From Candidatus Woesearchaeota archaeon (lineage in GTDB: Archaea; Nanobdellota; Nanobdellia; SCGC-AAA011-G17; JAGVZY01): DNA of 53,229 nucleotides. The stretch is from the NCBI GenBank assembly GCA_018302225.1, contig JAGVZY010000008.1, positions 1 through 53,229 of the forward strand, in the 5' to 3' direction. Positions 19,681-39,767 of this stretch are shown piece by piece. Positions within the stretch are counted from its first letter, which is position 1; each line of letters starts with the position of its first letter. Below the pieces are notes generated by a model. The model was not told where the DNA came from and ran no database searches. It saw only the letters and a list, made by a program, of their open reading frames with translations. A program made the position numbers and the translations under genes.

Positions 19681-19703
19681 CAAAGTAAATAAAGGTTTTG
19701 AAG

Positions 19704-20441
19704 ATGGAAGAAAGCTCAAAAGAAGAGGCTATTGTAAAGGAGAGATTAAATAATATTGGCTATTTTTTTAAGGATAATAAGAAGTTATTAATTATTTTTA
19801 TTTTAGGTTTGATTTTAATTTTTGGATTATATATCAGAACGAGAAATTTAGATTTGTTAGTTGATAGTACAACTGGAAAGTATATTCCTGCTGATCCTGA
19901 TGCTTTTGCATTTATGAGATATACTAAGTATATTGCAGATCATGGTTCTTTAATGGATATTGATAATATGAGGTATTATCCTTGGGGATATAATAATATG
20001 ATTGAGTTCTCATTATTGAGCTATATGATTGCATATTCATATAAATTTTTACATGTGTTTATTCCAAGTATAACTGTTGAATTAGTTGATGTTACTTATC
20101 CTGCGTTTGCATTTGTTTTAAGTATGATATTTTTCTTTTTGTTTGTAAGAAAAATTTTAGGTTGGAAAGTTGCTATGATTTCAACATTCTTTGTTACAGT
20201 AATGCCCGGATATTTATTTAGAACAATGACTGGTGTTTCTGATAAAGAAGCTATGGCTTTAGTGTTTTTGTTTTTAGCTTTGTGTTTGTATGCTTATAGT
20301 ATCCAAGAAAAGAAATTCTTAAAATCCTTAGGATTTGCTTTAGGCGCAGGAATTGCAACTGCAATTATGGGTTTGATTTGGGGCGGAGTTAGTTTTTTAC
20401 TTTTAAGTATTGATATTGTGTGTGGTATATTAGTTTCATGA
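19704..20441 (+). CDS. aglB: Oligosaccharyltransferase AglB, N-terminal part (frameshifted)
   Basis: N-terminal half of the Stt3/AglB catalytic subunit that transfers lipid-linked glycan to Asn in N-X-S/T. A first membrane helix precedes the external loop with Asp-Pro-Asp (residues 64-66 from this start), the metal-binding DxD near the peptide site, and a second loop Gly-Val-Ser-Asp-Lys-Glu-Ala. ATG 19704 is preferred over TTG 19698. The frame ends at TGA 20441 shortly after GTGTGTGG (20418-20425); dropping one GT unit joins it seamlessly to the next frame. Whether this is a sequencing error, a real mutation or a switch cannot be decided here. Confidence 0.85.
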   Translation: MEESSKEEAIVKERLNNIGYFFKDNKKLLIIFILGLILIFGLYIRTRNLDLLVDSTTGKYIPADPDAFAFMRYTKYIADHGSLMDIDNMRYYPWGYNNMIEFSLLSYMIAYSYKFLHVFIPSITVELVDVTYPAFAFVLSMIFFFLFVRKILGWKVAMISTFFVTVMPGYLFRTMTGVSDKEAMALVFLFLALCLYAYSIQEKKFLKSLGFALGAGIATAIMGLIWGGVSFLLLSIDIVCGILVS

Positions 20442-22318
20442 TTTTAATGCTTGTTACTGGAAGGCAAGATATTTCTGGTATAATTGGTGGATTTCAAAGT
20501 TTAGTAAATACTTTTGCTTTAGTATATTCATTAATTTATATCTTAGTTTTAAAAAATAAACATTTTAACAAATTTAATGAAAAGATTCAAAATTTGATTA
20601 AAATTCCTGAATCTTTACTTGCAGCTTTAATTTCATTTATAGTTGTTATTTTAATAACTCTGCCTCTATGGGGGTACAAATTTATTTATAATAAATATCT
20701 CGAAGTTTCTCAGATGTTGATTAACCCTATCGAAACTGGAAGATGGGCAGTTACTGTTGCTGAAGCACATCATCCTCATTTAGTTGAATGGATTTCGAAT
20801 GTGGGTTGGATAGTATTATTGGCGTCTATTTTTGGAATTGCATTTTTAGTTTATAAGAATTTACATAAACTAAAAGATGAAAAAAGAATTTTAATTTCTG
20901 GAATGATTCTAATTGGAATATTAATAATCTTGTTTAGTAGATATTCTGAAGGTGCTAAATACTTAAATGGGGAATCTGCGATTTCAGAGTTTATTTTATT
21001 AATTGGCTGTTTATTACTAGTTTTACCATTTATATTAGGATTGTTTTCAAATAGAGAAAAATATAAAGAATCTATTTTAAATATTAATAATTTAGTTGTT
21101 TTATTGTTTATATGGTCTATAGTTACATTGATTGCATCAAGAAGTGCAATTAGATTATTGTTAATGGTTATTCCCGTGTTTGCAATATTTTTAAGTTATA
21201 TCTTAGTTTATATATTTGAATTAGCTATAAAAACAAAAGAATCTTGGCTTAAGTGGAGTATTTTAATTTTAATATTTATTTTAATTTTAAATCCAGTTGC
21301 AGTTTTTGGATATAAAGGGATTGCAATTAAATTTTCTCAACAAACTTTAGCTCAAGCAAAATCTTTGGGTCCGGGATATAATAGACAATGGCAATTGGGA
21401 ATGGAATGGGTTAGAGATAATACCCCTAAAGAAGCTGTATTTGCACATTGGTGGGATTATGGTTATTTTGTTCAAGGTGGTGGAGAAAGAGCAACTGTTA
21501 CTGATGGAGGTAATGCTAGAGGTTCATTAAATCATTTTATGGGAAGGTATGTCTTAACTGGAGTGAATGATACTGAAGCATTACAATTCTTAAAAGCACA
21601 TAATGTTTCTTATTTATTAATGGTTTCTGATGAAATAGGAAAATATCCTGCATTTTCTTCAATTGGTGCAGATAAAAATTGGGACAGATATTCTTGGATA
21701 AATATGTTTGCAAGAGATGATCAACAAACTATTGAGAAAAAAGAAGGTGTTGTTAATATTTATACCGGCGGAACAATACTTGATGAAGATTTAATTTATA
21801 ATGGAGAATATTTCCCCCGAGGAAAATCTGGAATTGCTGCAGTTTCTGTACCTTTAATGAAAGATGAAAATTCAAGTATGATAATTATGCAACCTATTGC
21901 TATAATTGTAAATCAAGAAGGAAAAAGAGCTGAAATTCCTGTTGAATGTGTTTATTTCAATGAAAAAGAAATGAAATTTGAGAAAGAAGGTTTAAAAGGC
22001 TGTCTTGTTTTTATTCCTGCAATAAATTCAGATTATAAATCTGCAGACAATTTGAAAACTCTAATGTATGTTTCTGAAAAAGTAAAAGAAGGATTATTTA
22101 CAAGATTATATCTTTTAAATGAAAAGAATGCTTATTTTGAAGAGGTATATAACGATAAACAGGGTGTTCCTTTAGCATTTTATCCATTTGGAAGAATAGT
22201 TGGTCCAATGAAGATATATAAAATAAATTACCCTTCAGATTTACAAGAAAATCCAATATTTTATAAGGATGAACTACCTGATCCAAATGTTGAGAGTCTC
22301 GAAGGAAGATTTGTATAA
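20420..22318 (+). CDS. aglB: Oligosaccharyltransferase AglB, C-terminal part (frameshifted)
   Basis: Continuation of AglB in the +2 frame. About eight membrane helices are followed by the soluble C-terminal domain with the signature Trp-Trp-Asp-Tyr-Gly (residues 344-348 of this frame), which recognises the sequon, and a Ser-Asp-Glu-Ile-Gly-Lys-Tyr region matching the DK/MI-type motif. The Val-Ala-Glu in the external loop (about 113-115) fits the TIXE-type position. The apparent GTG start at 20420 lacks a Shine-Dalgarno site. Joined to the N-terminal part the protein would be about 870 aa, normal for archaeal AglB. Confidence 0.88.
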   Translation: MWYISFMILMLVTGRQDISGIIGGFQSLVNTFALVYSLIYILVLKNKHFNKFNEKIQNLIKIPESLLAALISFIVVILITLPLWGYKFIYNKYLEVSQMLINPIETGRWAVTVAEAHHPHLVEWISNVGWIVLLASIFGIAFLVYKNLHKLKDEKRILISGMILIGILIILFSRYSEGAKYLNGESAISEFILLIGCLLLVLPFILGLFSNREKYKESILNINNLVVLLFIWSIVTLIASRSAIRLLLMVIPVFAIFLSYILVYIFELAIKTKESWLKWSILILIFILILNPVAVFGYKGIAIKFSQQTLAQAKSLGPGYNRQWQLGMEWVRDNTPKEAVFAHWWDYGYFVQGGGERATVTDGGNARGSLNHFMGRYVLTGVNDTEALQFLKAHNVSYLLMVSDEIGKYPAFSSIGADKNWDRYSWINMFARDDQQTIEKKEGVVNIYTGGTILDEDLIYNGEYFPRGKSGIAAVSVPLMKDENSSMIIMQPIAIIVNQEGKRAEIPVECVYFNEKEMKFEKEGLKGCLVFIPAINSDYKSADNLKTLMYVSEKVKEGLFTRLYLLNEKNAYFEEVYNDKQGVPLAFYPFGRIVGPMKIYKINYPSDLQENPIFYKDELPDPNVESLEGRFV

Positions 22319-27749: not shown

Positions 27750-28823
27750 ATGATAGCTAAAAAAGATATTCAGATAGAAAGCCACAAATTAATGTATCAT
27801 CCTAACGAGGTCTCTAGGTGGATAAATGGTCAGATTTTTGCACCAATTTATCTAGAAATAGGACCTACAAATATCTGTAATCATAAATGTAATTTCTGCG
27901 CATTAGATTATTTAGAAGTTAAACCAAAGTTTTTAGATAAAAAAGTATTTTTAACAAATTTAGAGGATATGGGTAATTTTGGAGTTAAAGCAATTATGTT
28001 TGCTGGTGAAGGGGAACCTTTGATGCATAAACAATTGCCTGAAGCAATTAAACAGGCAAAAAATTCTGCAATAGATATCTCAATAACTACAAATGGTGTT
28101 TTATTTGATAGGACAAAAACTGAAGAGACTTTAAAATATTTGTCCTGGATAAAGTTTAGTATTGACGCCGGAAGTAAAGAAACATATTCCAAAGTTCATG
28201 GATGTAAAGAGCAGGACTTTGATAAAACTCTTGAAAATCTGAAGTTTGCCAGTCAATATAAAAAAGATAATAATCTTGAAGTTGTAGTGGGGGCACAAAT
28301 GCTCTTGCTTCCTGAAAATATTCATGAAGTTGAAGATTTAATTTTGAAAATAAAAGATTTTGATATTAATTATTTAATTTTAAAACCATATTCTCAACAT
28401 CCAAATAGTCTTAATCAGAAGAAATTTGATATAACCCAATATAATTTAAGACTTAAAGCAATCTCAGCTAAATACTCTAAAGGTAAATTTCCAATAGTAT
28501 ATAGATCAATTTCTGCTAAAGAAGTTAATGTAGATAAAATAGAGTATAATGAATGTTATGGGCTTAACTTTTTTGCGCTAATTGATGCGTTAGGTAATGT
28601 TATACCTTGCAATATATTTTATGGAAAAGAAGAGTATTATTACGGAAATATTAATAAAAATAAGTTTAGTGATATTTGGAAAAGTGAGCAAAGAAAAAAA
28701 GTTCTAGAAAGGTTATACAAAGAAGGTACTACAAATTGTAGAAAGGGATGTAGACTAAATTATATTAATCAATATCTTGACAATTTAAAAAATAAAAAAG
28801 TAGAACATATTAATTTTATATAG
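27750..28823 (+). CDS. Radical SAM/SPASM enzyme A
   Basis: First gene of the operon, with GGAGGGG just before the ATG. Radical SAM cluster motif Cys43-x3-Cys47-x2-Cys50 in a TIM-barrel domain, preceded by a Leu-Met-Tyr-His leader that its paralogue (30014-31144) shares. The C-terminal region has a Cys-Tyr-Gly-Leu, an Ile-Pro-Cys-Asn and a final Cys-x3-Cys, the pattern of a SPASM/twitch auxiliary cluster domain, and ends His-Ile-Asn-Phe-Ile. Such enzymes generate a 5'-deoxyadenosyl radical. No peptide substrate gene is nearby; context suggests a small-molecule or sugar substrate. Confidence 0.85.
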   Translation: MIAKKDIQIESHKLMYHPNEVSRWINGQIFAPIYLEIGPTNICNHKCNFCALDYLEVKPKFLDKKVFLTNLEDMGNFGVKAIMFAGEGEPLMHKQLPEAIKQAKNSAIDISITTNGVLFDRTKTEETLKYLSWIKFSIDAGSKETYSKVHGCKEQDFDKTLENLKFASQYKKDNNLEVVVGAQMLLLPENIHEVEDLILKIKDFDINYLILKPYSQHPNSLNQKKFDITQYNLRLKAISAKYSKGKFPIVYRSISAKEVNVDKIEYNECYGLNFFALIDALGNVIPCNIFYGKEEYYYGNINKNKFSDIWKSEQRKKVLERLYKEGTTNCRKGCRLNYINQYLDNLKNKKVEHINFI

Positions 28824-28831
28824 GGTGAAAA

Positions 28832-29467
28832 ATGAATAAAGAAGATTTAATAAAATTCGAAAATGAAATCGTTGGATTATGGGAAGATGCAAAAATAGCT
28901 TATCCAGTACATTTTTCAGGGGGAAATGAAGATCAATTAATTGAAATTTTTAAAAATATCAAGAGAGAAGATTATAAATTTTCAACTCATCGAAGTCATT
29001 ATCATTATTTATTGTCTGGTGGATCTCCTGAAAAATTAAAAGAAATGATAATAAAAGGAGATAGTATGCATGTTTTTGATAAAGAAATAAATTTTTTAAC
29101 CTCTGCAATTGTTGCAGGTATACCTGCTATTGCTGCTGGTGTTGCTTGGGCAATAAAACAAAAGAATCTTGAAACCAGAGTTTGGTGCTTTATTGGTGAT
29201 GGGGCTGAAGATGAAGGACATTTTTATGAAGCTGTAAGATATGTAGATGGACATAATTTACCTTGCACATTTGTCATAGAAGACAATGATAGATCTGTTG
29301 AAACCCCTAAATTATTAAGATATGGTAAATCTGAGATGAACTGGCCAAGTTGTGTAATTAAATATTCTTATGTACCTACTTATCCTCATGTTGGAACAAA
29401 TAAATGGGTTAATTTTAATAAATATATTGATATGGGGTCTAAAGAAAAACCAGGAGTTAGTTTTTAA
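28832..29467 (+). CDS. TPP-dependent enzyme, E1alpha-like PP-domain subunit
   Basis: The TPP diphosphate/metal motif Gly-Asp-Gly-Ala-Glu-Asp-Glu-Gly-His (122-130) leading to Glu-Asp-Asn-Asp (150-153), about 25 residues later, is present. The preceding Ser-Met-His-Val-Phe-Asp-Lys and Ala-Gly-Ile-Pro-Ala-Ile-Ala-Ala-Gly-Val-Ala match the alpha subunit of 2-oxoacid dehydrogenase E1 (PDH/acetoin type). It is only 211 aa against about 330-360 in typical E1alpha, ending soon after the PP domain. GGTGA lies before the ATG. It works with the Pyr-domain protein encoded by the next gene; no E2 or E3 gene is in the window, so lipoyl transfer is unlikely. Confidence 0.82.
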   Translation: MNKEDLIKFENEIVGLWEDAKIAYPVHFSGGNEDQLIEIFKNIKREDYKFSTHRSHYHYLLSGGSPEKLKEMIIKGDSMHVFDKEINFLTSAIVAGIPAIAAGVAWAIKQKNLETRVWCFIGDGAEDEGHFYEAVRYVDGHNLPCTFVIEDNDRSVETPKLLRYGKSEMNWPSCVIKYSYVPTYPHVGTNKWVNFNKYIDMGSKEKPGVSF

Positions 29468-29468
29468 A

Positions 29469-29996
29469 ATGAAATATAAGGATGCAATTAAACAATCAAT
29501 GGAAGAATTAATTAAAGATGATAGAGTGATGTTTGTAGGCTATAATATAAATTATGGTTCTAGAGCTTATGGAACTTTGGCAGGTATACCTCAATCAAGA
29601 TGTTTAGAAACTCCACTTGCTGAAAATTTGATGACTAGCATGGCAATGGGTATGTCTTTACAAGGTTATAGGCCCATTGTATTTTTTGAAAGACATGATT
29701 TTGTTTTAGTTGCATTGGATAGCATAATAAATCATATTGATAAAATTGAAAAATTATCTCATGGCCAATATCAAACCCCTGTTATAATAAGAGCTGTTGT
29801 TGGTTCAAATAAACCTATTGATCCAGGATTACAACACACTCAAGATTTTACAGAGATGTTAAAGAGCGTAATTTCATTTCCAGTCATTGAATTAAAAAAT
29901 AGTAAACAAATCATAGAAGAGTATGCTAAAGTATTGAAGACCGATCAACCAACAATGTTTATAGAAAGAAAAAATTTATATGACTTGGATTTATAA
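29469..29996 (+). CDS. TPP-dependent enzyme, E1beta-like Pyr-domain subunit
   Basis: Start chosen at ATG 29469, one base after the previous stop; a longer frame opening at 29370 lies inside the alpha gene. The 175 aa resemble only the Pyr domain of E1beta/transketolase: Glu-Thr-Pro-Leu-Ala-Glu (catalytic Glu52 for the TPP aminopyrimidine), Gly-Tyr-Arg-Pro-Ile-Val-Phe-Phe and a Pro-Val-Ile-Ile-Arg strand. The transketolase C-terminal domain is absent. With the alpha-like subunit it would make a minimal heterotetrameric TPP enzyme. Confidence 0.8.
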   Translation: MKYKDAIKQSMEELIKDDRVMFVGYNINYGSRAYGTLAGIPQSRCLETPLAENLMTSMAMGMSLQGYRPIVFFERHDFVLVALDSIINHIDKIEKLSHGQYQTPVIIRAVVGSNKPIDPGLQHTQDFTEMLKSVISFPVIELKNSKQIIEEYAKVLKTDQPTMFIERKNLYDLDL

Positions 29997-30013
29997 AAAT
30001 AGGATTTATTAAA

Positions 30014-31144
30014 ATGACATCTGAAAATAAAGAGGATAAAAATGAAATTGTATTAGATGGGCATAAATTAATGTATCATCAAGATAGAGTTAAAGAATGG
30101 TTGGATGGGAAAAGAATCGCTCCAATTACTATAGATATGGCTTTAACACAAGGATGTAATTATAAATGTGTTTATTGTTATGGCCAATTGCAAGACAATC
30201 AAGGCTATGTACTAAACAATAAAGTTCTTTCAAGATTTGCTGGAGATGTAGAAGAGCTAGGTGTTAGAGGCATAAGTCTTATAAGTGATGGTGAGAGTAC
30301 TTGTTCCCCTCATTTTTATAATTTTATTCAAGATATTAAAAGCAGGAATATAGATATCGCTGTTGGAACTAATGGTGTATTGCTAAAAGAAGATAAACTT
30401 AAAGAAATGCTTTCTGCATTAACTTACTTAAGATTTAATATTTCTGCAGGAGAATCAAAAAGATATGCTGAGATTATGGGTTGTAAAGAAAAAGATTTTG
30501 AGAGAATTAAAGAAATAATTAAAGAGAGCGTGAAAATTAAAAAAGCTAATGATTTGGAAGTAACTATTGGACTTCAAATGGTTTTAATGCCTTCTTTTAA
30601 AGACCAGATAATTCCTTTAACCAAATTGGGTAGAGATCTTAATGTAGACTATTTGGTAATAAAACATTGTAGCGATGATGAAGATAATAGTTTGGGTGTA
30701 GACTATTCAAAATATGATAATCTAGTGGATTTATTAAAAGAAGCTGAAACTTATTCTACAAAAGATTATTTAGTTAAAGCAAAGTGGTCCAAAATATTGA
30801 GTCAAGGTAAAAGAGAGTATATCCAATGTTATGGCCCTCCATTTATGGTTCAGATTTCAGGCTCAGGTTTAGTTGCACCATGTGGGATGCTTTTTAATGA
30901 AAAATATAAAAAATTTCATATTGGAAATATTGCTGAAAAATCATTTAAAGAAATTTGGAATAGTGATAAATATTGGGAAGTTATGAAGTATATAGGTTCT
31001 GAAAATTTTGATGCAAGAAGCGATTGTGGACATTTATGTCTACAACATAAATTAAATGAATATTTATGGGGTTTGAAAAAAGAAAAAACTAGATTAAATC
31101 CTATAAATCCTGAAAAAAAGCCAATGCATATTAATTTTGTTTAA
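30014..31144 (+). CDS. Radical SAM/SPASM enzyme B (paralogue of A)
   Basis: Radical SAM motif Cys48-x3-Cys52-x2-Cys55. It aligns along its whole length with the enzyme encoded at 27750: the same Lys-Leu-Met-Tyr-His leader, Thr-Asn-Gly-Val-Leu after strand 3, Gly-Cys-Lys-Glu-(Lys/Gln)-(Asp)-Phe near the middle and the same His-Ile-Asn-Phe-Val C-terminus. SPASM-type cysteines are present (Cys-Tyr-Gly-Pro, Pro-Cys-Gly-Met, Asp-Cys-Gly-His-Leu-Cys). The pair probably arose by duplication and may act on successive intermediates. Confidence 0.85.
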   Translation: MTSENKEDKNEIVLDGHKLMYHQDRVKEWLDGKRIAPITIDMALTQGCNYKCVYCYGQLQDNQGYVLNNKVLSRFAGDVEELGVRGISLISDGESTCSPHFYNFIQDIKSRNIDIAVGTNGVLLKEDKLKEMLSALTYLRFNISAGESKRYAEIMGCKEKDFERIKEIIKESVKIKKANDLEVTIGLQMVLMPSFKDQIIPLTKLGRDLNVDYLVIKHCSDDEDNSLGVDYSKYDNLVDLLKEAETYSTKDYLVKAKWSKILSQGKREYIQCYGPPFMVQISGSGLVAPCGMLFNEKYKKFHIGNIAEKSFKEIWNSDKYWEVMKYIGSENFDARSDCGHLCLQHKLNEYLWGLKKEKTRLNPINPEKKPMHINFV

Positions 31145-31145
31145 A

Positions 31146-32978
31146 ATGAAAAATCTAAAAGATTATAACCAAAATAATATATTTTGGAAGGATTTTGTAA
31201 ATCTTCCTGGAAACCCTTATAAGTTGGATAAAGGTTTGGATGATTTTAAATGTTTATTCTTATTTCCTACTAAGAAGGGCGATTTTTCCAAAGACTATTA
31301 TCCTAATCCCCTAGGAAATATGGCTTCATTAGTTAGAATGAATAAAGGCGAAGCAGAAATTTCTATTCAAGATATTAATGAATATACTTCTGAAAAATTC
31401 AAAGGATATGACTTAATAGCCTTTTATCCGATGGTTGCTTCTTTGTCTAAAATGACTGAAATGTCAGATAAAATAAAAAAAGATAATCCTAATTCAAAAA
31501 TCTGTTTTTTTAATTCAGATCAACATCAACATGAAATGCTTTTATGCAATCCAACTGCAAAAGAATTTGGAATTAAAATGATGGAGAAGCATTCTTCAAT
31601 AGACTATGTTTTAGTTGGTGAAGCTGAAAAATCATTTATTGATTTGTGTGATAAATTAAATAATAAAAAAGATAATTTTGAAAATCTTGCATCTTGCTTG
31701 TATAGAAAAGAAGGAAAAATTCAGATTTCAAAAAATTCAATTAAACCTGTTGATTTTAAATATTTACCTTTTCAATCAAGAGACTTTCTTGAAACAACTA
31801 TTTCTTCTGAGGGAATTAATTTAAGCTCTCCAAGAATCCAGTCAAGTAGAGGTTGTGTATCTGGATGTTATTATTGTACTGAATCTAGTGCAAATATTAC
31901 ACCGGGAGGTAGAAAGATTCCTTTGTTGATGAGAGATATAGATAAATTTGTTGATGAAATTGAATTATTGTATCAAAACTATGGTGTTGTATTTTTTAAT
32001 GTTATAGATAGTTCATTTGAAGGTTCTGGAAGTGCAGGAATTAGAAGAATGAGTCAATTTTTTGATGAAATAAAAGAAAGAAATATTCAGGCTTCATTTA
32101 AAGTGCATTTAAGAGCTGAAACTGTTAAAAAGTTGGATGATTTATATTTAGATAATTTAAAAGAATCAGGTGTTGATATTATTGGGCTTGGACCGGAATC
32201 TTGTTTAGAAAAAGAATTAAAATCTTATAAAAAAATAGCAACTATAGAAGAAAGTGTAAATAGTATGCAAAGACTGAGAAAAGAGGATAAATTCTTTGTT
32301 ATCCCGGGATATATTATGTTTACACCCATTTTGGAATTAGATGACCTTCCTAAGAAATTAGATTTCTTAAAAAAAATAGGTTATGGATGGGATTATTTAA
32401 ATTTAGCAAATAATATTCTTGTTTTTCCCGGGACAAAATATCATGAATTTCTTAAATCTAAAGACTTGGTTGTTGAAACTGCTGAATTAGCCCCATTAAT
32501 AAAATATAAATTTGAAGATTCAAGAGTTGAAGATGTTGCAAAAGCAATTAATAATCTCAAAATAATCTGTCCAGAAACCATAAAAACACATAATTTAATT
32601 TATGACTCTATGAATATAGTAAGCAGATTTAAAAATAAGATGAATAAACATCTTAAACAAAATGAAAAAGCATTCTATGATTTTAAAGCGAGTTTAGATA
32701 AAATCTTAAATGAAGTTCAAGAAACTTATAGTTCATTTTTTATGAATTCTATTGATTTAGCTAGAGCTGGAATGCAAGAAAGGAAATTAGACTTAATTAC
32801 TCAAGATATAACAAATAAATTTCCTGCATTTATGAAAAGAACAGATGATAATATAAAGAAGTTTATTTCTGACTGCGAGGATAAAAATCTTTCAACAAGT
32901 AAATTATATTTGAAAACTTGGATGTCTTTAGTTTATACTCAAGAAAATACAACCGGTGGAAAAATTAATGGGAAATGA
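31146..32978 (+). CDS. B12-binding-type radical SAM enzyme, 610 aa
   Basis: Start at ATG 31146, just after the previous stop; an upstream TTG is in frame. The N-terminal 200 residues have the Rossmann-like pattern of a cobalamin-binding domain (Leu-Ile-Ala-Phe-Tyr-Pro ... Val-Leu-Val-Gly-Glu-Ala-Glu), but I see no clear DxHxxG, so B12 may not be ligated in the usual way. Radical SAM cysteines are at 237, 241 and 244 (CVSGCYYC), followed by a TIM barrel with Gly-Leu-Gly-Pro-Glu-Ser. A helical C-terminal extension (about 430-610) is unusual. B12 radical SAM enzymes often methylate unactivated carbons or rearrange skeletons. Confidence 0.78.
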   Translation: MKNLKDYNQNNIFWKDFVNLPGNPYKLDKGLDDFKCLFLFPTKKGDFSKDYYPNPLGNMASLVRMNKGEAEISIQDINEYTSEKFKGYDLIAFYPMVASLSKMTEMSDKIKKDNPNSKICFFNSDQHQHEMLLCNPTAKEFGIKMMEKHSSIDYVLVGEAEKSFIDLCDKLNNKKDNFENLASCLYRKEGKIQISKNSIKPVDFKYLPFQSRDFLETTISSEGINLSSPRIQSSRGCVSGCYYCTESSANITPGGRKIPLLMRDIDKFVDEIELLYQNYGVVFFNVIDSSFEGSGSAGIRRMSQFFDEIKERNIQASFKVHLRAETVKKLDDLYLDNLKESGVDIIGLGPESCLEKELKSYKKIATIEESVNSMQRLRKEDKFFVIPGYIMFTPILELDDLPKKLDFLKKIGYGWDYLNLANNILVFPGTKYHEFLKSKDLVVETAELAPLIKYKFEDSRVEDVAKAINNLKIICPETIKTHNLIYDSMNIVSRFKNKMNKHLKQNEKAFYDFKASLDKILNEVQETYSSFFMNSIDLARAGMQERKLDLITQDITNKFPAFMKRTDDNIKKFISDCEDKNLSTSKLYLKTWMSLVYTQENTTGGKINGK

Positions 32979-34068
32979 ACTTTGGAATCAACCAACTAAA
33001 TTAGGGAAGTATGAATTGAAGAATAAAATAGTCTATCCTCCTATAGGAAGAAGTTGGGGGGATTTAAATGGAAATATCACAAATAGAGTATATTCTTGTT
33101 ACAAAAATTTAGCAGAAGGTGGCTGTGGTATGATTGTTGTTGAAGGTACTACGGTTTCTCCTGATGGAAAAGGATCCAAACGAACCTTGGGATTATATAA
33201 TCAAACTCATTTAGACGGGTTAAAAAAAATATCTAATGTGATAAAACAAAATAAATGTCTTGCTTCAATCCAATTATTACACGCTGGAGGTCAAGCTAAT
33301 CCTATATTTACAGGTTATGAACCTAAATCACCATCTAAAATGGACAAAACTATGACTGGAACAGGATATGCTTCAAGAGAATTAACAGTTGAAGAAATAA
33401 AAGAAATACTTAACCATTTTGTTGATTCAGCATTGCTTGCTGATAAAGCAGGATTTCAGGCAGTAGAATTACATCTGGCACATGGTTATCTTTTACACGA
33501 ATTTCTTTCTGAACACACTAATAAACGAAATGATAATTATGGTGGAAATTTAGAAAATAGAATGAGACTAATAACTGAAATTATTTCTGAAATTAAAAAG
33601 AATTCCAATATTCTAATAGGTGTTAGAATTTCTGGAGAGGATTATATTCCTGATGGTATAAATAAAAAAGTAAATAAAGAAATTTTACCTATATTAGAAA
33701 AAGTAGGTGTTGAGTATTTTAGTGTAACTGCAGGTATTTATGAAACAAGCAAGATAAAACATCTAGCATTAAAAGAAGGAAAATTCTTTGAATATTCTAA
33801 GGATATTAAAAAAATGATAAATAAGCCTGTAATAAGTGTTGGAAAGATTTTGGATTTGAATCAAGCTGAAAAACACTTACAAAATGAAGATTGCGACTTA
33901 GTTGCGATAGGTAGAGGTTTAATTGCTGATCCCCATATGATTAACAAATTTATGAAAGGAGAAAATTATAATTTTTGCTTAGAGTGTGATGGATGCAGAT
34001 ATTTAGCTATGGGCAAAGAAAGTTTGGAATGCCCGTTTGATGAAGATTTGGAGAATAGATTGGAATGA
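32968..34068 (+). CDS. Old yellow enzyme-family flavoprotein
   Basis: FMN-dependent TIM-barrel oxidoreductase. Start at ATG 32968 behind GGTGGA, overlapping the previous gene by 11 nt. Diagnostic motifs are Leu-Leu-His-Ala-Gly-Gly-Gln, then His-Leu-Ala-His-Gly-Tyr-Leu-Leu followed by Asn-Asp-Asn-Tyr-Gly-Gly-Asn and Asn-Arg-Met-Arg, and a phosphate-binding Ala-Ile-Gly-Arg-Gly. The C-terminus has Cys-x2-Cys-x2-Cys and a fourth Cys 12 residues later, placed as in the 4Fe-4S site of 2,4-dienoyl-CoA reductases, but the FAD/NAD domain of that family is missing. It probably reduces an activated C=C or similar intermediate of the pathway. Confidence 0.85.
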   Translation: MGNELWNQPTKLGKYELKNKIVYPPIGRSWGDLNGNITNRVYSCYKNLAEGGCGMIVVEGTTVSPDGKGSKRTLGLYNQTHLDGLKKISNVIKQNKCLASIQLLHAGGQANPIFTGYEPKSPSKMDKTMTGTGYASRELTVEEIKEILNHFVDSALLADKAGFQAVELHLAHGYLLHEFLSEHTNKRNDNYGGNLENRMRLITEIISEIKKNSNILIGVRISGEDYIPDGINKKVNKEILPILEKVGVEYFSVTAGIYETSKIKHLALKEGKFFEYSKDIKKMINKPVISVGKILDLNQAEKHLQNEDCDLVAIGRGLIADPHMINKFMKGENYNFCLECDGCRYLAMGKESLECPFDEDLENRLE

Positions 34069-34910
34069 AATTAGAAAATAAGGTTGCAATTATAACTGGT
34101 GGAAGTGGTGGAATTGGTAGCGAGATTGCTAAAAGTTTTTTAGAAGAAGGTGCCCAGGTAATTATTACTTATAGGTCTGAAGAAAAAGTAAAAAAAATTT
34201 TAAGAGATTTAAAAGAGCATTACAAATCAGGTCGTCTTGATTGTGTTCCCTTGGATATTACTAAAGAAAAAGAAATTAAAGAGGTAATCGAATATGTTTC
34301 TGAAAGAAATACTGGAATTGATATTTTAGTTAATGCTGCTGCAACTCAACTTCCTATTGGAGAATTTAAGGATTTAAAAACTGAAGATATTCTAAATGGG
34401 ATTCAAACTAATTTTACAGGTACAATTTTATTTTGTAAATATGCTTTACCTTATTTAACTGAAAGCAAAAATGGTAAAATAATTAATTTTTCTGGTGGAG
34501 GTTCTTTATACCCTCGACCTAATTTTTCTATATATGGTGCCATGAAAACAGCAATTATTAGATTTAGTGAAACTTTAGCTGAGGAAGTAAGAAGATATAA
34601 TATTGATATTAATGTTATTGCACCTGGTGCCATAAATACTAATATGGTTGATGAAATTATAAAAGCAGGAAATTTAGCGGGTTCAAATGAATTAAAAAAA
34701 GCAAAAGAGATTCAACAAGGTAATGGCAATTCTCCTCAAGTAGTCGCAGATTTAGCTGTATTCTTAGCCTCTGAAGAATCTAAAGGTATTACAGGTAAGT
34801 TAATTAGTGCACCCTATGATAATTGGAGATCTTTGAATAAAGAAAGTTCTTCGCTATACACTTTAAGAAGGATAGATGGTAAAAACTATTTTGAGGGAAA
34901 AAATGACTGA
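34065..34910 (+). CDS. Short-chain dehydrogenase/reductase
   Basis: Classical SDR: cofactor loop TGGSGGIG (11-18), Asn-Ala-Ala (90-92), catalytic Ser143, Tyr157 and Lys161 (Tyr-Gly-Ala-Met-Lys), and Ile-Ala-Pro-Gly-Ala-Ile-Asn-Thr. Arg37 after strand 2 favours NADP. The C-terminal 40 residues extend beyond the usual end. ATGA overlap with the flavoprotein gene indicates coupled translation. It likely oxidises or reduces a carbonyl of the same metabolite. Confidence 0.88.
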   Translation: MKLENKVAIITGGSGGIGSEIAKSFLEEGAQVIITYRSEEKVKKILRDLKEHYKSGRLDCVPLDITKEKEIKEVIEYVSERNTGIDILVNAAATQLPIGEFKDLKTEDILNGIQTNFTGTILFCKYALPYLTESKNGKIINFSGGGSLYPRPNFSIYGAMKTAIIRFSETLAEEVRRYNIDINVIAPGAINTNMVDEIIKAGNLAGSNELKKAKEIQQGNGNSPQVVADLAVFLASEESKGITGKLISAPYDNWRSLNKESSSLYTLRRIDGKNYFEGKND

Positions 34911-35784
34911 AAATTTAATAATTAAAAGTTCATATTCTAAATTAGTAAATGGAAGTCTAAAATCTAATTATGGTGATTTAATAATAAGTACTGTATTAAC
35001 TAACTGTATTGGTGATGAATTTATTTGGTTTACTAATAAAGATTCTAAACAATTATTAAAATATTTTATTGATGAAAAAAGGATAATTACTAGTTTAGAT
35101 GAATTATCTAATATAAAAAAGGATTTTAATTTTAATAAAATTTATAATATTGATAACTATGTTTGTAATCAAAGTTTATTTGAAAAAATAAAAGGTGTTT
35201 GGAAAGGTTATATTTGGGATGGGATGGATTTAAAACCTGAAAATGCAATAATCAATTCTAGAACACCTTATGTTTCAATGACCACTAAAAAATCTTTACA
35301 AGAAACATTAGTAGAGGGGATGGGATTTAAGTGGGAAAAACAAGACTATCCTCTGCCTAAATTAAAAGCTGAAGAAAAGTTTGACATAGGATTAAATTAT
35401 GGTGTTCAGAAAGAATGGACGTCTAAGCAGTGGTCAATGGAAAACTGGGAAAATCTTGCAAAAATACTTGAAAAAGAGTTTACTGTTTCATGGCAGCAAG
35501 GTTTAAATAATTTTGATGAATATATAAATTGGTTAAATTCGTGTAAATTAATCATAAGCTGTGAAACTTTGGGATTGCATTTAGCATCTGCATTGAGGAA
35601 AAAAGTAATTACTCTTTCAGGGCCAATAGAAAATAAAGAATATCCATATGATAGGTTAACTTTAATAAAACCTTTTCCAAAGGGTTGTATGCCTTGTGAT
35701 TCACCTACGTGTGTAACTAATGAAAATTGTTTAAATGAGATAACACCTGAGCTAGTAAAAAAGAAAGTTTTAGAAATAATTTAA
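34903..35784 (+). CDS. GT9 (heptosyltransferase-family) glycosyltransferase 1
   Basis: Start at ATG 34903 after GAGGG, overlapping the SDR by 8 nt; an in-frame ATG at 34876 lacks a ribosome-binding site. The C-terminal half carries the GT9 pattern: Lys-Gln-Trp-Ser ... Trp-Glu-Asn-Leu, the Trp-Leu-Asn-Ser-Cys-Lys-Leu-Ile-Ile-Ser-Cys-Glu-Thr donor-site loop, His-Leu-Ala-Ser-Ala-Leu, Leu-Ser-Gly-Pro, and a cluster of four Cys near the C-terminus. GT9 enzymes use ADP-heptose or related donors. It is the glycan-transfer step closest to the radical-SAM/TPP genes. Confidence 0.78.
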   Translation: MTENLIIKSSYSKLVNGSLKSNYGDLIISTVLTNCIGDEFIWFTNKDSKQLLKYFIDEKRIITSLDELSNIKKDFNFNKIYNIDNYVCNQSLFEKIKGVWKGYIWDGMDLKPENAIINSRTPYVSMTTKKSLQETLVEGMGFKWEKQDYPLPKLKAEEKFDIGLNYGVQKEWTSKQWSMENWENLAKILEKEFTVSWQQGLNNFDEYINWLNSCKLIISCETLGLHLASALRKKVITLSGPIENKEYPYDRLTLIKPFPKGCMPCDSPTCVTNENCLNEITPELVKKKVLEII

Positions 35785-35803
35785 AAATAGAGAGAGATGT
35801 AAT

Positions 35804-36685
35804 ATGAAAGAGAGTTTAATAAAAATACCTGAAGAGTATACTTATATAGCTGCATTTCTAACTTTAAGATGTAATTTAAGTTGTGAATTTTGTTTAAATG
35901 CGTTTGATGGAGATTTTAGTAGAAAAAGAGAAGAGATTTCCGGTGAAGAATGGGTTAAAGCATTAAATAAATTGGAACCTAAAAAAGATATCCCTATTAC
36001 TTTAAGTGGCGGGGAACCTGCATTACACCAAGATTTTATTTATATTATAAATAATTTAAAAAAAGAACTAAATATAGATATTTTAACGAATTTGTATTGG
36101 GATGAAAAAAGATTTGATAAGTTTATAAAAAATGTTGATCCGAACAGACTGAAAAGAGATTCTCCTTACGCTTCTATACGTGCAAGTTATCATCCTAGTC
36201 AGATGGATATATTTAAACTTGTAAAAAATGCAAAGAGATTGCAAGATGCAGGATTTAGTGTGGGAATATGGTCTGTATTATATCCTAGTCCTGAACAATT
36301 AGGCAAAATAAATGAAGCTCAATTTGTTTGTAAGAATGAAGGAATAGATTTTAGATTGAAAGAATTTGTTGGAATTTATAAAAATGAAGAGTATGGAAAC
36401 TTTTCTAAGTATAAAAATTCAGCATTTCAAGAAAGTTCTAAAGATTGTCTTTGTAGAATTAAGGAATTAATAATTGGGCCAAATGGAAGTGTTTACAAAT
36501 GTCATAGAGATTTGTATGCTAAAGAAAATGAGCTTATAAAAATAAAAGATAAAAATTTCAATGTAGAATATAAATTTAGAGAGTGTAACCAATATGGGCA
36601 ATGTCATCCTTGTGATGTTAAAGTAAAAACAAATTCTAAGCAAAATTTAGGTTATTGTAGTGTCGAGATAAATGATATAAATTAA
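35804..36685 (+). CDS. Radical SAM/SPASM enzyme C
   Basis: Radical SAM motif Cys23-x3-Cys27-x2-Cys30, then Leu-Ser-Gly-Gly-Glu-Pro-Ala-Leu (GGEP motif, SAM binding). The C-terminal region has several cysteines (Cys-Leu-Cys, Cys-His-Arg, Cys-Asn-Gln-Tyr-Gly-Gln-Cys-His-Pro-Cys) consistent with an auxiliary cluster. It is not close to enzymes A and B. It is 19 nt downstream of GT9 with AGAGAG before the ATG, so it is probably the last gene of the operon. It is convergent with the next GT9 gene, with a 4-nt overlap. Confidence 0.83.
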   Translation: MKESLIKIPEEYTYIAAFLTLRCNLSCEFCLNAFDGDFSRKREEISGEEWVKALNKLEPKKDIPITLSGGEPALHQDFIYIINNLKKELNIDILTNLYWDEKRFDKFIKNVDPNRLKRDSPYASIRASYHPSQMDIFKLVKNAKRLQDAGFSVGIWSVLYPSPEQLGKINEAQFVCKNEGIDFRLKEFVGIYKNEEYGNFSKYKNSAFQESSKDCLCRIKELIIGPNGSVYKCHRDLYAKENELIKIKDKNFNVEYKFRECNQYGQCHPCDVKVKTNSKQNLGYCSVEINDIN

Positions 36686-37650
36686 CATTTTAATAATTTT
36701 TTTGTCTCTTCAAAAACTTGTTCTGGGGAAATGAAATCCATGCAAGAAGTAATATGTGGAGTATAGGTGCATTTAGACTTAAAACAAGGGATACAATCAT
36801 AATCTCTTGCAGTTATTGCTTTACCCTTACCATAGAAACAAATTTCACTTGAAGGTGTTGGTCCGAATAAACCTATTGCAGGTTTATTTAATGCAATAGC
36901 TAAATGTAGACCCAAACTATCATTACTTACGAGAGCTTTTGATGAATTTATCCAATCCATATAAGAATATAAATTGTTTAAAACTTCTTTATTTTGTTTA
37001 TCTTGTCTTGTTACTTTATATCCCTCTTTAGTAAGCATATCTTCTAATTCATTCCACTTATTTAAGTTCCATTGTTTATTTGGCCATTTTTCACCAACAA
37101 GGATATTTAATCCTACATCATTTATGACTTCACTTTTAGGATTGTAACCTAAAATATATTTTTCATTGTTCCATTTTTTTCCAATAACTTCGTACATTAA
37201 CTCTTGAGCATATTTTGAATTTTCCTTTTTAAGTGTTTGATCTGAGCATACTGCTAATACTTCTGCAGCACGTTCATAAGCTTCTGATTTTCCTGTAGAT
37301 TTGTCAAATCTAAATCCATGCTTTTGCCAAGCATCAATTTTATCTACTAAAGCACATATCCCAGGAATTTTTTCTAGATTAATAACTGTATCAAAAATTT
37401 CTGCTTCTAGTTGTAAAACAGTTGTAAAATCATAAGGCAATATTTTAGTTATGTAAGGATTTCCTTTTAAGAGGGGTATACCTACTTCGTCTGTAACCCA
37501 ATAAACTGTTTGATCTTTAAACGGGTGTAAAAGAACTGTAGTTCTTAATATATCTCCTAAACTTACTTTTCTTGTATTTGTTTCTTGATCTAAAAATTCT
37601 GAATAACCTGTTTTAAGTATCAAAATCTTCTGTTTACTCTCTTTTTGCAT
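36682..37650 (-). CDS. GT9 (heptosyltransferase-family) glycosyltransferase 2
   Basis: Two Rossmann-like halves. The donor half shows Glu-Lys-Trp-Pro-Asn-Lys-Gln-Trp, Trp-Ile-Asn-Ser-Ser-Lys-Ala-Leu-Val-Ser-Asn-Asp-Ser-Leu-Gly-Leu-His-Leu-Ala, and Gly-Leu-Phe-Gly-Pro-Thr-Pro-Ser, the standard GT9 sequence, then Cys-Ile-Pro-Cys. Complete at 322 aa. Transcribed against the radical-SAM operon from a TATA-like box about 22 nt upstream of its ATG. The donor may be ADP-heptose or a derivative; no heptose biosynthesis gene is recognisable in this window. Confidence 0.83.
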   Translation of the reverse strand: MQKESKQKILILKTGYSEFLDQETNTRKVSLGDILRTTVLLHPFKDQTVYWVTDEVGIPLLKGNPYITKILPYDFTTVLQLEAEIFDTVINLEKIPGICALVDKIDAWQKHGFRFDKSTGKSEAYERAAEVLAVCSDQTLKKENSKYAQELMYEVIGKKWNNEKYILGYNPKSEVINDVGLNILVGEKWPNKQWNLNKWNELEDMLTKEGYKVTRQDKQNKEVLNNLYSYMDWINSSKALVSNDSLGLHLAIALNKPAIGLFGPTPSSEICFYGKGKAITARDYDCIPCFKSKCTYTPHITSCMDFISPEQVFEETKKLLKC

Positions 37651-38525: not shown

Positions 38526-39767
38526 CTATTTCTTAAATTCACTAATTAATTCATTTACAGAATTAATTATTTCTTCCTTTTTTTTATCTCCATAAGGATA
38601 AGGAATTTCAAAATAAGGTGTTGGATTTTTCATATATTCAGACCAATAATCTTTTTTATAAAAACCGTCTCTCAACAAAGAAGTATAGTATTCTGTATCG
38701 GGCTCTGGAAAAAGCATATTAAAATAAGGAAATTTTATACCTAAATCTCTTATTTTTTGTGGAAGCTGTTTAGTATAATCTAAAGGCTGAACAGGTGCAC
38801 CTATAATAAAATATCCTAAAATATCTATATTATACTTTCCAAGCGTATTGCAAAACTTGTCTATATGTTTTACTCTTACTGGTTTTCTAAAGAATTTTAA
38901 AATATTATCATCTAAAGCTTCTATACCTACATGAATTCTTTTGAAATTGTGTGAAGCTAGCCTTTGAGTCATATAATCACTCATTCTGGCTTCTCCTCTA
39001 CCACTCCATTCTACATTAAGGTTATTTTTTTCCATTTCATCTAAAACTTGGTTTAAATATTTTTCATTGGTGTTGAAATTATCATCGAGGAAATGTACAC
39101 TTTCAGAACCTAAGGATATTAGATACTTCATTTCTTCAATTATTTTTTCTGGATCTTTTCTTTGAACTTTTTTTTCTTGAACATTACAAAAATTACATCT
39201 ATTTGGACAACCTACACTACTAAACATAGGTAATCTATTTTTTGATTTAAATAAAACAAATTCTTTTGGAAAATAAGCTTCAATATCTAAAAAGTCTCTT
39301 CTGGGAAAATTAATTTCATTTATAATAGTATTACAATTAATAATTCCTTTTTGTGAGACTTTAATAGACTTATTAAATTCCTTATCTGCCAAAGAACCTA
39401 CAAAAACTGCATCAGCCCCATTTTCTAAAATTTGATTTGCATAATTTGTTGCATGCGGGCCACCAACTGCTTTATAAGGTGCAGAAGTAGATTTTAAAAT
39501 TTTATTTAAAGCATAAACTCTTCTTGTAACTGCAGAAATACCCAAAACATCAGGATTTTCTTTTTCTATTTGATTTATGGTTTCTTCTATTGTCCAACCT
39601 TCACTTGGTGGATCTAATAATTTAATATCATATTCTTTTGAAAGATTTGAGGCTAATGATAAAATTCCCAAAGGAAGATACTTTACTGCAGTAGGTTGAA
39701 AATGCTTTGGAGTTGTCCAATTAACAAACTCTCCTTCGGTAGGCAAAGTGGTTAATAAGACTTTCAT
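38526..39767 (-). CDS. B12-binding-type radical SAM enzyme (BchE-like)
   Basis: Residues 1-135 form a cobalamin-type Rossmann domain with Pro-Leu-Gly-Ile-Leu-Ser-Leu-Ala and Val-Gly-Gly-Pro-His (102-106). Radical SAM cysteines at 187, 191 and 194 (CPNRCNFC) head a barrel containing His-Val-Gly-Ile-Glu-Ala. ATG 39767 is used; TTG 39779 is in frame and lies 24 nt from the shared TATA, so it could be the leaderless start. Members of this class perform C- or P-methylations and cyclisations. It is divergent from the GlcNAc-1-P-transferase-like gene. Confidence 0.82.
   Translation of the reverse strand: MKVLLTTLPTEGEFVNWTTPKHFQPTAVKYLPLGILSLASNLSKEYDIKLLDPPSEGWTIEETINQIEKENPDVLGISAVTRRVYALNKILKSTSAPYKAVGGPHATNYANQILENGADAVFVGSLADKEFNKSIKVSQKGIINCNTIINEINFPRRDFLDIEAYFPKEFVLFKSKNRLPMFSSVGCPNRCNFCNVQEKKVQRKDPEKIIEEMKYLISLGSESVHFLDDNFNTNEKYLNQVLDEMEKNNLNVEWSGRGEARMSDYMTQRLASHNFKRIHVGIEALDDNILKFFRKPVRVKHIDKFCNTLGKYNIDILGYFIIGAPVQPLDYTKQLPQKIRDLGIKFPYFNMLFPEPDTEYYTSLLRDGFYKKDYWSEYMKNPTPYFEIPYPYGDKKKEEIINSVNELISEFKK

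Follow-up and report, generated by a model that had tools for sequence, protein, structure and literature searches.

What would an archaeon make with nine consecutive genes that join radical S-adenosylmethionine (SAM) proteins to a thiamine-dependent enzyme, a flavoprotein and a glycosyltransferase? The question is raised by positions 27750-36685 of a 53,229-nt contig (JAGVZY010000008.1) of a Candidatus Woesearchaeota archaeon (GCA_018302225.1). This contig, C8 of a 0.81 Mb genome that is 99% complete (G000), is called the window below. An earlier reading of its letters alone, the original prediction, proposed one nine-gene pathway for an unusual, perhaps branched or deoxygenated, sugar or lipid head group of the surface glycan. 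A comparison across archaea, bacteria and viruses leaves little doubt that the operon holds a conserved module. Its core is a radical SAM protein (rSAM1) with a minimal two-subunit enzyme of the thiamine diphosphate (ThDP) type (E1a and E1b), and both parts are exchanged for unrelated enzymes elsewhere. Tentatively, the module would form a ketone on a sugar and add a two-carbon (C2) unit to it. The nine genes and two conserved neighbours are:

27750..28823, + strand: rSAM1, Pfam radical SAM and SPASM, twitch-type; core; proposed ketone-forming oxidase
28832..29467, + strand: E1a, E1-alpha-like subunit, Pfam E1_dh, PP (ThDP-binding) domain only; core
29469..29996, + strand: E1b, E1-beta-like subunit, Pfam Transket_pyr, Pyr domain only; core
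30014..31144, + strand: rSAM2, Pfam radical SAM and SPASM, same twitch family as rSAM1
31146..32978, + strand: B12a, Pfam radical SAM, large, resembles B12-dependent families; add-on
32968..34068, + strand: old-yellow-enzyme-type flavoprotein (OYE), Pfam Oxidored_FMN, four-Cys Fe-S motif; add-on
34065..34910, + strand: short-chain dehydrogenase/reductase (SDR), Pfam adh_short; add-on
34903..35784, + strand: GT9a, heptosyltransferase-family glycosyltransferase, Pfam GT9 at 27.8 bits (weak, above the cut-off of 22); add-on
35804..36685, + strand: rSAM3, Pfam radical SAM, no Pfam SPASM match
36682..37650, - strand: GT9b, second GT9 protein, Pfam GT9 at 65 bits; conserved neighbour outside the nine genes
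38526..39767, - strand: B12b, Pfam Radical_SAM and B12-binding; conserved neighbour outside the nine genes

All nine open reading frames are intact and run on the + strand with intergenic gaps of -11 to +19 nt, which agrees with the co-directional, tightly packed genes first described. Such gaps leave no space inside the operon for a precursor-peptide gene, as had also been stated. The family calls of the original prediction were broadly matched by Pfam, with corrections. Three SPASM proteins had been named; two of them, rSAM1 and rSAM2, carry the four auxiliary-cluster Cys of a twitch (single-cluster) domain, and the third, rSAM3, has no Pfam SPASM match. The protein called a B12-type radical SAM enzyme (B12a, about 610 aa) gives no match to a B12-binding domain in Pfam; its similarity to B12-dependent radical SAM families lies below their cut-offs, and its sole solved relative is OxsB. 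The OYE (366 aa) has a conserved C-x2-C-x2-C-x11-C motif and lacks the second, C-terminal FAD/NAD domain that accompanies these two features in FadH/BaiCD-type enzymes.

Neighbourhood analysis, which could have shown that the genes do not co-occur elsewhere, shows that they do. The first archaeal search, with the 211-aa E1a as query against 190 relatives, found three close homologues besides that of the window (71-78% identity) and one diverged one. The gene orders around them differ. G063 reads HldE-like, B12a, an OYE-SDR fusion, GT9a, E1a, E1b, rSAM2, rSAM1 and then B12b. G178 reads B12b, GT9b, B12a, OYE, an NAD-epimerase family protein in place of the SDR, GT9a, rSAM1, E1a, E1b and rSAM3. 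G049 is shorter (HldE-like, E1a, E1b, rSAM1, NUDIX). A wider search added G382 (GT9b, rSAM2, E1a, E1b, NUDIX-like, rSAM1, rSAM3). In G403 the order is GT9b, rSAM1, rSAM2, the PP and Pyr proteins of a transketolase-type pair and, after intervening genes, NUDIX and rSAM3. The radical SAM partners recur widely, rSAM2 in G063, G382, G403 and G349 and rSAM3 beside the core in G178, G382, G349 and G403, both also in bacterial and viral loci. Orthologues of GT9b lie beside the core in G178, G382, G349, G403 and the viral locus L263, those of B12b in G063, G178 and L064, and those of GT9a in G063 and G178. Among the 371 genomes of the phylum, B12a was found in two, both of which carry the core; it also occurs in G063. 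Close matches to E1-alpha (5 genomes) and to rSAM1 (8) overlap in four of the 371 (hypergeometric P = 4.5e-7, uncorrected for relatedness).

These archaeal neighbourhoods divide the operon into a core of rSAM1, E1a and E1b, commonly with rSAM2, rSAM3 and GT9b, and an add-on of B12a, OYE, SDR (or epimerase) and GT9a, seen in three genomes so far. The conserved unit of the original prediction thus stands, and its fixed nine-gene pathway is rejected. GT9b and B12b belong to the conserved neighbourhood though they lie beyond 27750-36685. A small NUDIX protein adjoins the core or its radical SAM genes in several archaeal cassettes (L040:10737-11135, L289:2397-2813, L291:15054-15449) and not in the window.

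The thiamine pair is unusually reduced. E1a (211 aa) keeps the GDG...N motif and E1b (175 aa) the Glu of ETPxAEN, whereas full-length E1 enzymes have an alpha subunit of about 330-360 aa and a beta subunit with Transketolase_C. Profile searches with positive controls found no Transketolase_C, no Transketolase_N and no Transket_pyr protein other than E1b in G000. The lipoyl E2 acyltransferase (PF00198, 2-oxoacid_dh) was absent from G000, G063 and G178, where a control search was positive, and membership of the pair in a dehydrogenase complex was rejected on this basis. The absences in G000 together indicate that the pair is neither part of such a complex nor a standard transketolase. Structure prediction, which had been suggested for the subunits, was run on an E1a-E1b fusion. 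The model (predicted local distance difference test, pLDDT, 82.8) aligns with transketolase over both domains at a TM-score of about 0.6 with a large root-mean-square deviation, and also with DXS; its Pyr domain fits the pyruvate dehydrogenase E1-beta at 1.8 A. E1a relatives occur in archaea, bacteria and phages; many phages, and G225, have E1b fused to E1a. Among minimal E1-alpha proteins there is a sister clade (L043, L058, L056:7371-8538) with GDM in place of GDG; it adjoins GMD-like and GFS-like SDRs, which are nucleoside-diphosphate-sugar genes, and has neither radical SAM nor alcohol dehydrogenase (ADH) in 13 of 14 lineages.

The core behaves as two slots, each with two alternative occupants. 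Dereplication of 117 E1-alpha loci at 75% identity gave 49 lineages, with score and distance thresholds of our choosing, and 35 of these form the clade that holds the window (support 100/100). Within five genes on either strand, 21 of the 35 have an rSAM1-family protein and 14 a Zn-dependent ADH; none has both and none has neither. Four changes on the tree are required to account for the ADH label, and well-supported branches compel two of these. The thiamine slot is likewise exchanged. A transketolase-type PP and Pyr pair (Transketolase_N and Transket_pyr by Pfam) stands in the place of the E1 pair in phages L198, L201 and L203, whose flanking genes are shared with phage group L109, as well as in L263, L267 and the archaeal cassettes G403, G186 and G349. 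Where phages have this pair, it is separated from the radical SAM gene by an inserted 230-aa protein with the look of a SAM methyltransferase (L198:5309-6001). Minimal transketolase-type pairs in viral contigs occur with a radical SAM gene at 15 loci, with ADH at 17, with both at none and with neither at 48; because many loci are related, raw counts and Fisher values overstate independence (for these pairs, even the raw value is only 0.03). The ADH-linked loci often keep the same SDR and PfkB partners, and the 48 others mostly adjoin other nucleotide-sugar genes. Both exchanges would make sense if a ketone-forming redox enzyme worked together with a thiamine enzyme that transfers C2 units.

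Several features of rSAM1 may point to an oxidase. Across 26 rSAM1, rSAM2 and phage sequences the only invariant Cys are 43/47/50 and 269/287/330/334, and a C-terminal [ND]xF[IV]-like tail is conserved. This is the CxxxCxxC motif plus four auxiliary-cluster Cys of the BtrN-like twitch family; the pattern suits a four-ligand twitch domain such as that of BtrN, the best match by sequence among solved proteins and one with which the twitch region aligns. BtrN, from butirosin biosynthesis, converts an alcohol into a ketone (PMC9012708). DesII, of the desosamine pathway, acts on TDP-sugars and also forms a ketone when it dehydrogenates the alternative substrate TDP-quinovose (PMC11434129); its likeness to rSAM1 is one of fold. 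rSAM1 has a thiamine-pair partner and an NF[IV]-like C-terminal tail, neither of which is known for these two, and its sequence identity to them is low. Against curated NCBIfam radical SAM families (e.g., TIGR04317) its best score, 102.7 bits, falls well short of the cut-off of 380. By analogy, rSAM1 may act as a dehydrogenase, with the chances about even. Outside the window, G000 encodes one more protein of the rSAM1/rSAM2 family (contig C16, L287:9255-10346).

The genes around the module point to carbohydrate. The operon lies among glycosyltransferases and STT3/AglB-like, WecA-like and flippase-like genes (these three named by eye), in keeping with the surface-glycan context first proposed. 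In G225, the E1a-E1b fusion adjoins an HldE-kinase-GmhA fusion, an HldE-type adenylyltransferase and GmhB. In Prochlorococcus AG-402-G19 (L071), HldE, GmhB and HldD relatives stand beside ADH and the fused E1. HldE itself is present in G063, G049, G178 and G225, and an HldE-like gene adjoins the core in G049, G063, L066 and L267. As a universal partner of the module, HldE was rejected, being absent from G000. Overall, a role of the module in carbohydrate or surface biology is very probable. The STT3/AglB-like oligosaccharyltransferase gene of the window (19698-22318) consists of two overlapping frames, 19698-20441 and 20420-22318; the gene may truly be split, or the break may come from a frameshift or from an assembly error.

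The module extends well beyond these archaea. A scan of 84,980 species genomes gave at least 34 E1-alpha loci, and among those listed are Desulfobacterales, a deltaproteobacterium, Nitrospirae, Chlamydiae, Prochlorococcus and Parcubacteria. Some of these loci hold rSAM1, E1a and E1b with rSAM2 or rSAM3. A plasmid search returned only distant E1 proteins. Viral contigs have at least 528 E1-alpha relatives, the best 80 of them at 53-64% identity, and viral loci fetched through rSAM1-type families have E1 within two genes in 78 of 85 cases. The contigs behind this abundance are metagenomic (IMG/VR), and some may be cellular DNA that was misassigned; one viral contig was confirmed to carry terminase, portal, major head and tape-measure genes, and an annotated phage collection held six matching records. 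The phage cassettes often sit between capsid and tail genes, beside glycosyltransferases. In phage group L109 the order is terminase, portal, major head protein, GT2 (PF00535), a 254-aa protein, E1b, radical SAM, E1a and tail genes; the 254-aa protein is GT9-like by eye and has no Pfam or PHROG match. PHROG 34187, a phage family without assigned function, matches both E1 subunits. In a 735-kb uncultured phage genome (L377, LR756501.1), E1-alpha is 65% identical to that of the window.

Zn-ADH versions are present in sequenced cyanophages, annotated only generically. The 'transketolase central region' genes of cyanophages S-SM2 and P-TIM68 are E1a-E1b fusions, 51% identical to the E1-alpha of the window. 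In S-SM2, the fusion directly follows Zn-ADH and precedes a carbohydrate kinase in a run that continues with a nucleotidyltransferase and epimerases. Unlike the operon of the window, the S-SM2 run has no radical SAM gene.

How could these parts work together? We propose that the operon encodes both the synthesis of an unusual sugar and its transfer to a surface glycan. First, rSAM1 would oxidise a sugar hydroxyl to a ketone, a slot that Zn-ADH would fill in other lineages. With a small keto-acid or a ketose as donor, the minimal ThDP heterodimer, which has only PP and Pyr domains and no E2 partner, would then attach two carbons to this carbonyl and so yield a C2-branched sugar. Next, rSAM2 and rSAM3 would tailor the sugar and the GT9 enzymes would transfer it. 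In G000, the B12-like radical SAM protein, the Fe-S flavoprotein and the SDR may add steps, perhaps a rearrangement or unsaturation followed by reduction. C2 transfer by the thiamine pair is probable by analogy with known enzymes; the whole scheme, from ketone to branched surface sugar, is put forward with rather less than even confidence.

The analogy rests on antibiotic sugars. In aldgamycin and kibdelomycin biosynthesis, E1-alpha/beta-type enzymes (KbDH-alpha/beta in the latter) give keto-sugars a two-carbon branch (PMC12247030), and AviB1/AviB2 are proposed to do so in avilamycin (PMC4753412). Like the window pair, these are two-subunit ThDP enzymes without E2. The window pair differs from these alphaKADH2 C2-branching enzymes in having only PP and Pyr domains (211 and 175 aa), a radical SAM or Zn-ADH partner, and a surface-glycan or phage setting in place of an antibiotic one. 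In the proposal for miharamycin and amipurimycin, the enzyme that passes hydroxyacetyl to a keto-sugar is a split transketolase (PMC12247030); it resembles the transketolase-type pair of some cassettes (L198, L267, G403), whereas the window pair is E1-type. ThDP-dependent C2 branching also occurs in yersiniose A, where YerE acts on a CDP-keto-sugar for O-antigen (PMC12247030), though YerE belongs to the decarboxylase superfamily, a different ThDP family. Of the products first proposed, the branched sugar therefore has precedent, while the deoxygenated sugar and the lipid head group gained no specific support. Thiamine-dependent sugar modification is already known; the radical SAM partner and the prevalence in phages were unexpected. 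The original prediction knew of no described pathway, and none pairing a radical SAM protein with a minimal thiamine pair was found in the accessible literature; as this leaves out most subscription journals, the negative is weak evidence of novelty.

Several points weigh against ketone formation followed by C2 branching. Exchange between unrelated enzymes suggests, and does not prove, equal function, and the ADH could instead reduce what the thiamine pair produces. The lineages are not fully independent, since the split or fused state of E1 largely tracks the rSAM/ADH label: fused E1 is mostly found with ADH and split E1 mostly with radical SAM, although fused E1 with radical SAM exists (L054, L066, L219). 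The similarity of rSAM1 to BtrN is distant. In its AlphaFold model (pLDDT 91.9) the nearest folds are DesII (TM 0.68), SuiB, SkfB and BlsE, and BtrN comes further down. G000 has no HldE relative and no CTP_transf_like protein, and only a single NTP_transferase gene. In small phages the stretches read contain no genes for nucleotide sugars, and the host would therefore have to supply the acceptor.

The most serious rival, unlikely but to be reckoned with, is chain extension. Here the pair would act in the manner of DXS or transketolase and turn an aldose into a 1-deoxy or higher-carbon ketose. After adjustment by the redox enzyme, HldE-type kinase/nucleotidyltransferases would convert this ketose to an activated, ADP-heptose-like form that GT9 could use as donor. 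The HldE, GmhA, GmhB and HldD relatives beside the fused E1 in G225 and Prochlorococcus, the HldE-like neighbours of the core, the GT9 partners and the alignment of the model with transketolase and DXS all suit it. Yet G000 and the small phage cassettes are without HldE, and characterised E1-type sugar enzymes act on ketones. On balance, branching seems likelier than chain extension.

Less probable again is that rSAM1 is a nucleotide-sugar epimerase, dehydratase or deaminase, like NeoN, AprD4 or DesII, with the thiamine pair in a step of its own; the sugar would then be epimerised or deoxygenated, and OYE and SDR would reduce an enone. DesII is indeed the top fold match, and the OYE-SDR fusion of G063 is what consecutive reductions would lead one to expect; the exchange with Zn-ADH, however, favours an oxidation step, and the four-Cys auxiliary cluster is like that of BtrN. 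That a lipid, cofactor or peptide is modified instead of a sugar is improbable. Twitch/SPASM radical SAM proteins often modify peptides, with SuiB and SkfB near rSAM1 by fold, and lipids are among the substrates of OYE, SDR and B12-like radical SAM proteins, but the partners are GT9, HldE, GmhB, PfkB and epimerases and the gaps hold no precursor gene; maturation of ribosomally synthesised and post-translationally modified peptides was rejected on these grounds. Least probable of all, the pair would replace a missing pentose-phosphate transketolase amid unrelated glycan genes: no second Transket_pyr gene exists in G000, G063 or G178 and transketolase-type pairs occupy the same slot, but the distribution is patchy (5/371 genomes), the link to rSAM1 or Zn-ADH is strict, phage copies lie between capsid and tail genes, and Transketolase_C is missing.

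If ketone formation and C2 branching are borne out, a radical SAM enzyme would replace the usual NAD-dependent ketone-forming step before thiamine-dependent C-C bond formation in surface sugars, and the pair would be among the smallest E1-type thiamine enzymes. PHROG 34187 and uncharacterised radical SAM families would gain a concrete, testable activity. As the slots are filled by unrelated enzymes, the oxygen-tolerant Zn-ADH version can inform on the oxygen-sensitive radical SAM version. More speculatively, a mobile two-slot module, a minimal thiamine pair with a radical SAM or ADH oxidase, may circulate among phages, DPANN archaea and bacteria; phages might use it, together with glycosyltransferases, to place a branched sugar on virions or on the infected host, and the archaeon might have extended it by further radical chemistry to an undescribed type of sugar. 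With phage copies and glycosyltransferases beside structural genes, whether virion or host is glycosylated becomes a testable question.

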